Shown here piece by piece: positions 4,647 through 55,202 of a stretch of DNA of 64,000 nucleotides. Positions within the stretch are counted from its first letter, which is position 1. Each line of letters starts with the position of its first letter. The DNA is taken from positions 124,001 through 188,000 of the forward strand of contig NZ_JALIQP010000003.1 of NCBI RefSeq assembly GCF_023566055.1, in the 5' to 3' direction. Source of the DNA: Halosolutus amylolyticus. Its GTDB lineage: Archaea; Halobacteriota; Halobacteria; Halobacteriales; Natrialbaceae. A model generated the notes under the pieces. That model made no database searches. It worked only from the letters and a program-made list of their open reading frames with translations, and was not told where the DNA came from. Made by a program: the position numbers and the translations under genes.

Positions 4647-4670
4647 TCATACGGACAGTTGTCCGTCTCA
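4647..4670 (-). repeat. Short family B palindrome on a stop codon
   Basis: On the minus strand this reads TGA-GACGGACA-AC-TGTCCGTA-TGA, with a perfect 7-bp ACGGACA/TGTCCGT stem. The first TGA is the stop codon of the small regulator gene ending here. The same element occurs at 25179-25202, and longer relatives at 51611-51652 and 55040-55125, always at a gene 3' end. Confidence 0.8.
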
Positions 4671-4949
4671 GTGCTTGAGGTAGTAGACCTGTTTGCGGGC
4701 GTCCCGGAAGCTGTACCGGGAGCCGACGATGTCGACGTCTTCGAGGCGATTGAGCGCGTAGCGGACGGTTCGATCGGGGAGCAGGGATTCCTCGGCGAGC
4801 TGGCCCTGCGAGAGCGGCGAGTCGGATTCGAGGACCTTGGCGACGAGTTTCGCACTCGGGGGCAGGTCACGCAGGCGGTCACGGTATTCGTCTTCCGAGA
4901 GGGTCTCCTCGGCGGCTGCGGCACGATCGTCAGCGGTACTCATGCTCAT
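4668..4949 (-). CDS. Small winged-helix (MarR-like) transcription regulator
   Basis: A 93-residue protein, about the size of a single winged helix. After an acidic N-terminus, residues about 30-90 give the helix-turn-helix (SPLSQGQLAEESLLPDRTVRYALNRLED) and wing (IVGSRYSFRDARKQVYYL). It probably binds DNA as a dimer; the target and any ligand are unknown. Start ATG 4949 fits a TATA-like GCTTTACC about 27 bases upstream; ATG 4943 would remove two residues. The stop codon lies inside a family B palindrome. The AT-rich region upstream (4977-5090) may hold its own operator. Confidence 0.8.
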   Translation of the reverse strand: MSMSTADDRAAAAEETLSEDEYRDRLRDLPPSAKLVAKVLESDSPLSQGQLAEESLLPDRTVRYALNRLEDVDIVGSRYSFRDARKQVYYLKH

Positions 4950-25178: not shown

Positions 25179-25202
25179 TCATACGGATTGCTGTCCGTCT
25201 CA
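25179..25202 (-). repeat. Short family B palindrome on the HAD stop codon
   Basis: On the minus strand this reads TGA-GACGGA-CAGCAA-TCCGTA-TGA. The first TGA is the stop of the HAD gene. It differs from the copy at 4647-4670 only in the loop and adjoining bases, while gene sequences outside are unrelated. It lies between convergent genes. Confidence 0.8.
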
Positions 25203-25871
25203 GACGATCCGATCGAACGTCTCGAGCGACGCGAGTTCGTAGGTCGGTTCGTGGTCGGCCGACTGGCCGTGGCCGGTGTCGATCCAGGCCGAATCGATTC
25301 CCATCGCGTTCGCCCCCGCGACGTCGGCGTGCAGGGAGTCCCCGACGTGGACCGTCCGATCGGGACCCGCCTCGAGCGACGAGAGGGCGCGCTCGAACGG
25401 GGCCGTGTCGGGTTTCGGGTAGATCCCAGCACTCGGTTCGGTGAACACCCGGACGTCGAAGGCGTCCTCGATGTCTAGCGCCCGGAGTTTCTTCGTCTGG
25501 GTCTCCCGGCCGCCGTTGGTGATGAGTCCGACCCCCCCGCGGTCGCGGGCGTGTTCGAGGGCGGCCTCGGCGCCCGGCTTGAACTGGACGGCGGTCGGAT
25601 CCCGCAGTTCGAGATATCGGTTCGCGAGCGACGACGAGACGCCGGGATCGACGTTCGCCCTGCTCGCGACTTCGGCGAAGAGGTGTTCGTAGAACTCGCG
25701 ATCGGTCTCGACCGTCGGCAGCGACGGCACGGCTGCCCGGAGTTCCGCGGGCGTACAGAACTGGTCGATCCCGGCCCGGGCGAAGGTCCGCTCGAGGAGC
25801 GTCCCGGCGTCCCGGCTGGGCTCGCACAGCGTGCTGTCGAGGTCGAAACAGATCGCGTCGTACGCGGCCAT
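25200..25871 (-). CDS. HAD-superfamily hydrolase
   Basis: A 223-residue HAD phosphatase. Motif I is FDLDST (nucleophile D10, acid D12), motif II ITNGG, the lysine is in IYPKPDTAPFE, and motif IV is HVGDSLHADVAGANAMG. The helical cap lies between residues 15 and 90. It is of the Gph/YjjG-like type, usually acting on small phosphomonoesters; the substrate is not predictable. Start ATG 25871. The stop codon lies in a family B palindrome. Confidence 0.85.
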   Translation of the reverse strand: MAAYDAICFDLDSTLCEPSRDAGTLLERTFARAGIDQFCTPAELRAAVPSLPTVETDREFYEHLFAEVASRANVDPGVSSSLANRYLELRDPTAVQFKPGAEAALEHARDRGGVGLITNGGRETQTKKLRALDIEDAFDVRVFTEPSAGIYPKPDTAPFERALSSLEAGPDRTVHVGDSLHADVAGANAMGIDSAWIDTGHGQSADHEPTYELASLETFDRIV

Positions 25872-47532: not shown

Positions 47533-47672
47533 GCGGGTACCTGCTCGGGGAGGGCAAAAACGCGTATCGGTTTCGCGGCCCGACCGTCGTTCATCCGGAC
47601 TGTTGCCCGTCGGTTCCGGCCCATCCGCGACCCGTCTGCGGGTGCGCCGGGACCTCGGGGCGGCGATCCGTA

Positions 47673-48758
47673 TCAGTCGTCGCAGACGACCGGGACGCTC
47701 GCGCGCACCTCCAGTCGATCGAGGTCGGCGACGAACGAGGCGAGCATCTCCCGGGAGACGTGGGGCATACAGACGATCCGGAGTTCGCCGGTCCCGGTCC
47801 GGGAGATGCGCCAGCCCCGGTCCCGGAGCGCGTCGAAGGTCGATCGAGGGACGTCCGCCGCGACCAGCGGCAGGGTGGGCTCGACGACCTCGTACCCTCG
47901 CTTTTCCAGCGCGTCGGCGAGCCACTCGGCGTTGTTCTGCGAGCGGACGTACTGCGTCCGGTAGCCGGTGGGCCACAGTTCCGCCATGGCCGCGACGGCG
48001 CTCGCGACCCCCGCACCCGATCGGGTTCCGGTCAGCGTCGCCTGGGCTGTCGACTCGAGGTACGGCGTGTCGACGGCGAGTTCGTCCAGCAGGTCCGCGG
48101 AGCGGACGAGCAATCCGCCGGCCGGGACGGCGGCCTGGCCCATCTTGTGCGGGTCGATCGCCATCGTGTCGACTGGCGCGTGCGAGAAGTTCCACTCGTG
48201 GTCCGTAAAGGGAAGGACGAACCCACCCCACGCGGCGTCGACGTGGAGCATGGCGTCGACCTCACGGGCAACGCGGCCGAGTTCCGGGATCGGATCGACG
48301 CGACCGTACTCGGTCGTCCCCGCGACGCCGACCACCAGCGCCGTCTCCGCGTCGACGCAGGTGCGGACGGCCTCGAGATCGACCCGGTGGTCCGCGTCGG
48401 TCGGGACGATCCGGAGGTCGACCCCGAGCACGTCGGCCGCCTTCTGGAAACTGAAGTGGGCGGACTCTGGCATGACGACGTTCGGCGTCGTCGTGTCCGC
48501 ACGCTCGCGAGCGATGCGGACGGCCTGGAGGTTCGCTTCCGTTCCGCCGCTCGCGACGTACCCCGTCGGATCGTCCAGCCCGGCGATCTCGCCGAGCATC
48601 GCGATCGCCTCGTCTTCGAGCGCTGTGACGGTGGGATACGTCCCGGGATCGCCGGGATTCGTCGCGAGAAATCGTTCGGCCGCGTCGCGCGCTACCGGGT
48701 GTGGCTCCGTACACATCGACGAGAGCACCCGATCGAACGCTTGCGGCTCGGCTTGCAT
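47673..48758 (-). CDS. mfnA: L-aspartate/L-tyrosine decarboxylase (MfnA family)
   Basis: A 361-residue PLP-dependent group II decarboxylase. The PLP lysine is K205 in DPHKMGQ; the stacking histidine is H101 in [14 protein letters not shown] and D174 lies in LHVDAAWGG. In methanogens MfnA makes tyramine for methanofuran; in haloarchaea, which lack methanofuran, the likely product is beta-alanine from aspartate for coenzyme A. Start ATG 48758 is preceded by an AT-rich TATA region (AATAAACCG on the minus strand). Confidence 0.88.
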
Positions 48759-51610: not shown

Positions 51611-51652
51611 GGGCGGCGGTTGCGCCGGTAAATCGTACAGCAATCCGTATCA
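51611..51652 (-). repeat. Family B half-element on the PhzF stop codon
   Basis: On the minus strand it begins TGATACGGATTGCTGTA, where TGA is the PhzF stop, and continues to ACCGGCGCAACCGCCGCCC. It matches one arm of the full element at 55040-55125 with few differences. Confidence 0.85.
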
Positions 51653-52549
51653 GGCCTCGAGTATCTCGTCTTCGTCGTCCTCCGGGACGACGATCGAGCC
51701 GTCGAGGACCGTCACGCCGCGGCCGCCGACCTGGACCGCGCTCCCGACGCGCACCCGGACGATCCCGGGCCGATCGACGTAGTGGCCCTGCTCCAGTCGC
51801 AGTTCCTCGGGAAAGTCGTCGTCGAACGCGCCGAACCGATCGAGGTAGGCACCGGCGGCCCCACTCGCGGTCCCCGTCACGGGGTCTTCCGGGACGCCTG
51901 CTCCGGGGGCGAACATCCGGCCGTGGAGCGTCGACTCGGCCTCGAGCGCGTCGAACGTGAAACAGTATATTCCGGTCGCGTCGAGGTCGTCGGTCAGGGT
52001 CTCGATCGCCCGCATATCCGGCTCCGCGCTCCCGAGATCGGACAGGTAGGTGATCGGGACGACCAGGAACGGGAGTCCGGTCGAGGAGACCGCCAGCGGA
52101 AGGTCCGCGCTCGCGCCCTCGAGCGCGGCCCGGTCGACGCCGAGCGCGTCCGCGACGCGATCGTAGCCGACGTCGACCTCGCGAATCGTCGGCGCGTCCT
52201 GGGTCATCCAGACCGTTCCGTCCGCTTCGACGTCGATCTCGAGAACGCCGACGTTCGTCTCGAGCGTCGTCGTTCCGGGTTCGAGCCCGGCGTCGTGGAG
52301 GTGGGCGAACGAGCCGATCGTGGCGTGGCCGCAGAGGTCGACCTCCTGGGTCGGCGTGAAGTAGCGGACGCGGCGGTCCGCGGCCGCGCTGGACCGGAGG
52401 AAGGCCGTCTCGCTGAGCGCGAGTTCGTTCGCGATCGACTGCATCTGGGTCTCGGAGAGGTCGTCGGCGTCCGGAACGACGCCCGCCGGGTTCCCCGTGA
52501 GCGGTTCGTCGGTGAACGCGTCGACCTGGAGCGCGCGAACCGTATCCAT
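51650..52549 (-). CDS. PhzF-family isomerase/epimerase-like protein
   Basis: A 299-residue protein with the double hot-dog-like PhzF fold. The N-terminal VDAFTDEPLTGNPAGVV and catalytic-Glu region ELALSETAFL (Glu about 46), then YFTPTQEVDLCGHATIGS and FAPGAGVPEDPVTGTASGA in the second half, are characteristic. PhzF relatives isomerise small acids; in archaea the role is unknown. ATG 52549 gives the family start MDTVRALQVDAF. The stop codon is part of a family B half-element. Confidence 0.9.
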   Translation of the reverse strand: MDTVRALQVDAFTDEPLTGNPAGVVPDADDLSETQMQSIANELALSETAFLRSSAAADRRVRYFTPTQEVDLCGHATIGSFAHLHDAGLEPGTTTLETNVGVLEIDVEADGTVWMTQDAPTIREVDVGYDRVADALGVDRAALEGASADLPLAVSSTGLPFLVVPITYLSDLGSAEPDMRAIETLTDDLDATGIYCFTFDALEAESTLHGRMFAPGAGVPEDPVTGTASGAAGAYLDRFGAFDDDFPEELRLEQGHYVDRPGIVRVRVGSAVQVGGRGVTVLDGSIVVPEDDEDEILEA

Positions 52550-52657
52550 ACCGTCGCGGTCGAACGGGAAGGGTATCAATCCATCGTCGGCTCGCGGTCT
52601 CCCTGCCCCGGTTCCGGAGGCGATCCATCGCGATTGCGGGCGGCGTTCCAGTCCGTC

Positions 52658-54343: not shown

Positions 54344-55042
54344 ATGTCCGACTTACCGGACGATTTCGACTGTACGATCACGAACTGGGAGTACATTTAC
54401 AGCCTCTGTCGCGACGTCAGCGACGAGGTTCGGCGCGACGCGTTCGAACCCGACGTCATCGTCGCGCTCGCCCGCGGTGGCTGGTTCGCCGGGCGGTGTC
54501 TCTGTGACTTTCTCGGTCTCGACGACCTGACGAGCCTGAAGATGGAACACTACGTCGGCACCGCCGAGAAGAGCGGCGAACCGACGGTCCGGTACCCCAT
54601 GCCCGAGGGGAGCGTCGAGGACAAGGACGTGCTCATCATCGACGACATCGCCGACACCGGCGGCTCGATCGAGCGCGCCCACGAGTACGTCGACGATCGC
54701 GGTGCCGGCGAGGTCCGGACTGCGACCCTCCAGTTGCTCGGAACCAGCGAGTACCAACCCGACTACGTCGGGGAACACCTGGACGACTGGACCTGGATCG
54801 TCTACCCCTGGAACTTCATCGAGGACATGATCGATCTCGTCTCGGGCGTCATGGCACAGGCCGACCAGGAGACGTTCACGCAGGAGGAAATTCGCCACTA
54901 CCTCGCCGAGTTCCACGGTATCGATCGCATCGAGATGGAGATCGCCCAGCCGAACCGGATCCCCGAGGTCGTTACCGAGATGGAACGGCGCGACGTCATC
55001 GCGTCGGAGGGGCCGGGCGAGTGGACGCTGGCCGACGACTGA
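54344..55042 (+). CDS. Phosphoribosyltransferase family protein
   Basis: A 232-residue type I phosphoribosyltransferase. The PRPP loop is VLIIDDIADTGGS (96-108), and the N-terminal VIVALARGGWFAGR supplies the pyrophosphate loop. The C-terminal 80 residues form an extra helical domain (FTQEEIRHYLAEFHGIDRIEMEIAQ, with MERRDVIASEGPGEWTL resembling a winged helix). It is of the Xpt/HGPRT-like group, base unknown, and the extra domain may regulate. The TGA stop is the first codon of a family B element. Confidence 0.85.
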   Translation: MSDLPDDFDCTITNWEYIYSLCRDVSDEVRRDAFEPDVIVALARGGWFAGRCLCDFLGLDDLTSLKMEHYVGTAEKSGEPTVRYPMPEGSVEDKDVLIIDDIADTGGSIERAHEYVDDRGAGEVRTATLQLLGTSEYQPDYVGEHLDDWTWIVYPWNFIEDMIDLVSGVMAQADQETFTQEEIRHYLAEFHGIDRIEMEIAQPNRIPEVVTEMERRDVIASEGPGEWTLADD

Positions 55043-55125
55043 TACGGTTTACTGTAAGTCATTACCGGCGCAACCGCGATTCTGGCGGCGGTTGCGCCGG
55101 TACATCGTTACAGCAATCCGTATGA
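55040..55125. repeat. Full-length family B palindromic element (86 bp)
   Basis: The left arm begins TGATACGGTTTACTGTAA and runs to ACCGGCGCAACCGC; the right arm is GCGGTTGCGCCGGT ... TTACAGCAATCCGTATGA. The arms pair over about 38 bp with a few mismatches around an 8-10 base centre. The left TGA is the stop of the phosphoribosyltransferase gene. It lies between convergent genes, 78 bases from the MATE stop. Confidence 0.88.
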
Positions 55126-55202
55126 GACGGGCCGCTGTACCGGATTACCGGCACATCGCAACCGTCCGGCGAGTGTGCCGGACCTGAACTGGGCCGTACG
55201 GG

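Follow-up and report, generated by a model that had tools for sequence, protein, structure and literature searches.

Why should the same palindromic sequence lie directly at the stop codons of several unrelated genes? This question is raised by a window of 64 kb, that is, the whole stretch of DNA analyzed here (positions 124001–188000 of a contig, C3, in the 4.59-Mb genome G000 of a haloarchaeon that groups with Natrialbaceae). An earlier note had listed four copies of one element in this window, each with the TGA stop codon of the adjacent gene as its first three bases, and had proposed that either the element inserts at TGA or the genes drift to end at it. The results given below indicate that the element is very probably a non-autonomous, MITE-like DNA transposon of 79–80 bp that enters T(G/C)A targets, most of which are stop codons.

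Copies of the Element in the Window

The described sequence was read directly in the window at 4/4 of the noted sites. The adjacent genes were those named before, encoding a winged-helix protein, an HAD protein, PhzF and a phosphoribosyltransferase, and TGA was the stop codon of each of them (Table 1). The boundaries and the number of copies had to be changed. The TGA belongs to a 3-bp repeat that flanks the element on both sides and lies outside of it; the copy at the PhzF gene is only the right half of an element; and a covariance model built from the copies of the genome added two older, diverged copies that had been missed. One of the latter adjoins the long copy, and its left TGA is common to both; the long copy lies between the TGA of the phosphoribosyltransferase gene and the older copy.

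Table 1. Positions of the element copies, their parts and the adjacent stop codons in the window.
Feature	Position (bp)	Strand	Basis
Left target-site duplication TGA of the long copy, stop codon of the phosphoribosyltransferase gene (54344–55042)	55040–55042	+	Sequence, gene identity, empty congener sites
Full 80-bp element (long copy)	55043–55122	+	Sequence, alignment, folding, model match
Terminal inverted repeats of the long copy	55043–55057 and 55108–55122		
Inner stem of the long copy (loop 55078–55087)	55063–55077 with 55088–55102		
Right target-site duplication TGA of the long copy	55123–55125	+	Sequence
Older diverged copy adjoining the long copy	55126–55198	+	Match of model R1 on the minus strand (E 8e-4), sequence
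Short 18-bp form (4650–4667) between two TCA	4647–4670	-	Sequence
Stop codon of the winged-helix gene (HTH_24; 4668–4949, minus strand)	4668–4670		
Short 18-bp form (25182–25199) between two TCA	25179–25202	-	Sequence
Stop codon of the HAD hydrolase gene (25200–25871, minus strand)	25200–25202		
Right half-element (left arm missing) with TCA at its end (51650–51652)	51611–51652	+	Model match, sequence
Stop codon of the PhzF gene (51650–52579, minus strand)	51650–51652		
Diverged 79-bp copy (47594–47672) with TCA...TCA flanks	47591–47675	+	Model match (E 5e-9), sequence, gene call
Stop codon of a predicted gene (47673–48716, minus strand)	47673–47675		

The short form occurs twice in the window, with 0.00 expected. 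The solitary 18-bp forms, namely the two of the window and the loci L142 and L144, resemble one terminal palindrome of the full element, and TCA...TCA flanks were intact in three of the four. These forms may be deletion products or separate mobile units.

Element Family and Its Distribution

A search of the genome with the seed ACAGCAATCCGTAT at no more than one mismatch returned 147 places, far above chance, as the reversed control returned 0. One hundred of the seeded places were read, and 98 proved to be complete or near-complete elements. The element is 79 or 80 bp long and has the form TACGG...CCGTA; its terminal inverted repeats are imperfect, and a hairpin lies at its center. About 100 copies are present in the genome. 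The consensus reads TACGGTTTACTGTACGTCATTTCCGGCGCAACCGC-loop-GCGGTTGCGCCGGTACATCGGTACAGCAATCCGTA, with a mean column identity of 87%. A second subfamily has different inner arms (CCGCCGATCACC...) and unchanged ends.

Among 125 relatives the copy number was patchy, from 0 to about 106, as after independent bursts. Individual species from other genera (G037, G040, G098, G103 and G118) contained approximately 60–106 copies, and the two congeners 0–1. So far, the family has been found only in Natrialbaceae; no match was obtained among phage records or viral contigs. No account of the family was found in the literature searched, although this does not prove that none exists.

Target-Site Duplication

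The flanks of the copies followed a simple rule. TCA...TCA was found in 43 and TGA...TGA in 37 copies (80 of about 98 in total), and mixed TGA/TCA pairs were absent (p = 8e-25 if the two sides were independent). If T(G/C)A were a part of the inverted repeat, mixed flanks would be seen, and they never are; the matching flanks in the same direction therefore identify the 3-bp repeat as a target-site duplication. About 18 of the 98 copies were without an intact duplication, owing to decay or another history. Note that the last base of the first seed was the T of the right duplication, which introduces a bias at that one base. A left-seeded set is free of this bias, and the same flank rule held in 66 of its 72 copies from named Natrialbaceae (such as Natrialba, Natrarchaeobius, Natronorubrum and Salinadaptatus). 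The same direct flanks were also seen in the genus g25 and in low-copy relatives.

Empty Sites in Congeners

Two genomes of the same genus, G015 and G016, are collinear with the region at 83–93% identity; the 13-mer core occurs 0 times in G015 and once in G016. Of the 32 element-bearing gene ends queried, G016 provided a match for 30, with one gene end entering the count twice since its element had been used in both orientations. The orthologous gene ends of G016 were empty in 30/30 cases; the stop codon was at the same codon in 27, and 24 of those were TGA. In both congeners, the PhzF gene has the same TGA stop and lacks the element, and the empty end of the phosphoribosyltransferase gene carries TGA in G015 and TAG in G016.

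Since most of the empty sites already have the stop at the same codon, the element enters pre-existing stops and regenerates them, and the stop predates the element at the tested gene ends. Of the two alternatives offered by the earlier note, insertion at TGA was thus borne out by both the duplications and the empty sites. The other one, namely that genes drifted to end at the TGA of a pre-existing element, could draw on the few copies with a flank mismatch. It is refuted at the tested sites by the empty orthologues, and the presence of TGA on both sides in the same direction does not agree with the end of an inverted repeat; as a general explanation, drift is hardly credible.

Preference for Stop Codons

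Genome-wide, the copies were not placed at random relative to stop codons. With gene calls made by a simple codon-model caller (later refined) rather than taken from the official annotation, the duplicated triplet was exactly the stop codon of the adjacent gene in 79/98 copies, and 5 more were borderline. Only 20% of the non-coding TSA triplets are stops in a background sample of 464 kb, approximately 1/10 of the genome. The stops used were TGA in 77 cases, TAA in 2 and TAG in 0, and TAG accounts for 23% of the background stops.

A part of this preference is found in the DNA target itself. The target profile is palindromic, GAC-TSA-GTC. Of the stops that carry an insertion, 51% had GACTGA and 49% CTGAG; the shares among all TGA stops were 16% and 14%, respectively (Fisher test, p about 5e-8). 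When non-coding TSA sites were weighted by the motif, the expected share at stops was 45%, or 53% after exclusion of divergent gaps and 64% within convergent gaps; these weights were obtained from 67 insertions with the positions treated as independent. The observed share was 81% overall and, in convergent gaps, 39/45 against the 64% expected there (p = 7e-4). The motif and the restriction to non-coding DNA predict 45–64% where 81–87% is seen, and part of the excess is therefore unaccounted for. Thus, about half of the copies at stops are explained by the DNA preference together with the loss of damaging insertions through selection. The odds are still 3- to 4-fold too high, which may reflect a specificity tighter than the weights, selection or a genuine recognition of gene ends.

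The last possibility corresponds to a transposition machinery that is guided to gene ends or stop codons themselves, for example, by 3'-end chromatin or by the translation or transcription machinery, with the duplication of the stop as built-in harmlessness. Such targeting would produce the excess that persists after motif weighting, also in convergent gaps, and would fit the fact that the same stop can be struck again. The GACTGA portion of the motif is, however, also present at some non-stop insertions; the weights, given how they were derived, may underrate the specificity for DNA; and on plasmids with an official annotation 5/10 copies were located exactly at an annotated stop and 5/10 were not, with the gene table being incomplete there. 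Direct targeting of gene ends is therefore considered unlikely, and preference for the DNA target combined with selection is the preferred reading.

Since the duplication restores the target, the same stop can receive another insertion, and one stop codon appears to have been struck more than once. In addition to the neighboring copies at the phosphoribosyltransferase gene, two tandem copies with one TCA in common were found in G118 (L178), and a remnant adjoining a copy was found at the locus L038.

Position Relative to Genes and the Hairpin

Convergent gaps contained about 48% of the copies and made up 21% of the gaps, and divergent gaps contained almost none. Downstream genes of the same direction were never less than 57 bp behind the element, while convergent neighbors were as near as 4 bp. 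The orientation of the element to the gene was roughly random (about 33 TGA-side and 44 TCA-side). This pattern of gaps and spacing is that of a tolerated insertion and not of a conserved signal.

The long copy folds into one hairpin (z -7.6 as DNA), and the hairpin is also stable as RNA (z -7.8). Because the first RNAalifold model had 6 pairs only, the hairpin was re-tested using a more diverse alignment. Over 31 diverse copies the stem was found to covary, with 29 double-change cells versus 13.8 in shuffles, and fewer such cells were obtained at every slid register of the stem. Both subfamilies contain the loop in either orientation, GATCCGGGCG or CGCCCGGATC, with the outer ends fixed (elements L001–L090 of G000, columns 36–45 of the alignment A1). 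This switch suggests inversion of the loop by strand switching. Covariation and the two loop orientations would be compatible with correction or flipping of the palindrome by strand switching, or with its retention for a hairpin-forming step of transposition.

A role as a 3'-end terminator or RNA-processing site had been called plausible in the earlier note. Under this explanation, the hairpin terminates transcription or protects or processes the 3' ends of mRNA and is kept for that. The position right behind stops and between convergent genes, the stability of the RNA hairpin and the compensatory changes in the stem all agree with such a function, yet the hairpin-forming DNA of a mobile element explains the covariation equally well. 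Furthermore, the random orientation and the consensus, which contains no T-tract, speak against a terminator; species of the same genus hold 0–1 copies at the same genes, within a range among relatives that reaches about 106; and the duplication, together with the palindromic nature of the target, shows that the copies arose by insertion and not by shared ancestry. The Rfam search gave no family at the gathering score and only sub-threshold hairpin-like matches. A functional 3'-end element is accordingly regarded as improbable, and a hairpin behind a stop codon need not be a terminator.

The covarying stem is also relevant to another alternative, an archaeal REPIN, in which paired REP palindromes are moved as a single-stranded hairpin by a Y1 (RAYT/TnpA-like) transposase. 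The inverted terminal palindromes around a spacer, the solitary short forms and the extragenic 3' location resemble such elements, and three Y1 transposase genes are present in the genome. None of these three genes has element ends nearby, and the copies carry a 3-bp duplication at both ends. Y1 transposases (IS200/IS605) are not known to make such a duplication. A REPIN is therefore highly improbable, and transposition with target duplication remains the preferred reading.

Proposed Mechanism and Search for a Helper

According to the proposed mechanism, a transposase acting in trans would cut the palindromic target GAC/TSA/GTC with a 3-base stagger. The element would enter in either orientation, and gap repair would copy T(G/C)A to both sides. 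Gene ends would be good targets because haloarchaeal genes often end in Asp(GAC)-TGA, and the host protein would stay intact after the insertion because the duplication regenerates the stop beside the gene. Selection, acting as a filter, would remove insertions in reading frames, operons and promoters, so that the surviving copies would be found at stops and, above all, between convergent genes.

The helper would most likely be a DDE transposase of the IS5/PHIS type, judging from the target and the duplication. The insertion sequence encoding it would be expected to carry ends like TACGGATTGCTGTA and TSA duplications. No element ends were found near the PF01609 or PF01797 loci in G000 or near the PF13359/PF13586 loci in six genomes. 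The search of low-copy genomes for an autonomous copy gave only elements of 77–80 bp, decayed copies or chance 13-mers. The element is therefore called MITE-like.

Two high-copy genomes, G000 and G037, share an insertion sequence of 969 bp (L149 in G000:C7; L322 in G037:C3), which has the ends GTAGGATCGCTAG and contains a transposase-like frame of 280 aa. Inspected by eye, it had neither the ends of the element nor a TNA duplication, and it was rejected as the helper.

On the proposed mechanism, the element would be a case of a transposon that escapes counter-selection, with a short palindromic target that matches the usual end of a haloarchaeal gene and a duplication that repairs the stop. 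This would connect the target-site motif, host codon usage and the spread of intergenic repeats.

Comparison with Known Systems

Several known systems share some of these features. REP and REPIN elements are palindromic and extragenic (PMC3116915), and the GTAG REPs supply TAG stops from their own ends (PMC3733652). Similarly, the element described here is an inverted pair of short palindromes with a spacer, is extragenic, often lies directly at gene ends and can supply a stop. It differs from them in that the stop comes from the duplicated target and not from the element's own end, and a direct duplication is present where REP/REPIN elements have none; a RAYT (Y1) gene flanked by copies, to which they are linked, was not found among the three Y1 genes of the genome.

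The small mobile repeats (SMR) of Haloquadratum are 80–110 bp long, make no target duplication and insert in other mobile elements (PMC3119063). The element is of similar size, likewise has inverted ends that match no known transposon, strongly prefers a certain target and is mobilized in an unexplained manner, but it does make a target duplication.

The NuwaII group of the IS5-related PHIS transposons uses a C/TNA/G target and produces a 3-bp TNA duplication (PMC4482050). The same habit was found here: the duplicated TNA triplet lies within a palindromic target, with C before it and G after it. Unlike NuwaII, which is eukaryotic and encodes a transposase, the element has no transposase attached, and it prefers the longer target GAC-TSA-GTC, with S in place of any base.

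MITEs are known in prokaryotes, including the haloarchaeon Haloquadratum walsbyi (PMC3119063; reviewed in PMC10969869). Like them, the element is short and non-coding (79–80 bp), has inverted ends, occurs in many copies (about 100), is flanked by short (TSA) duplications and is patchy among relatives, with 30/30 sites empty in G016. In contrast to prokaryotic MITEs, a transposon with matching ends was not found for it among the transposase loci and low-copy genomes searched, and its copies lie mostly on stop codons, a placement for which no report on MITEs was found in the literature searched. Thus, the element is best described as MITE-like, with an IS5/PHIS habit.
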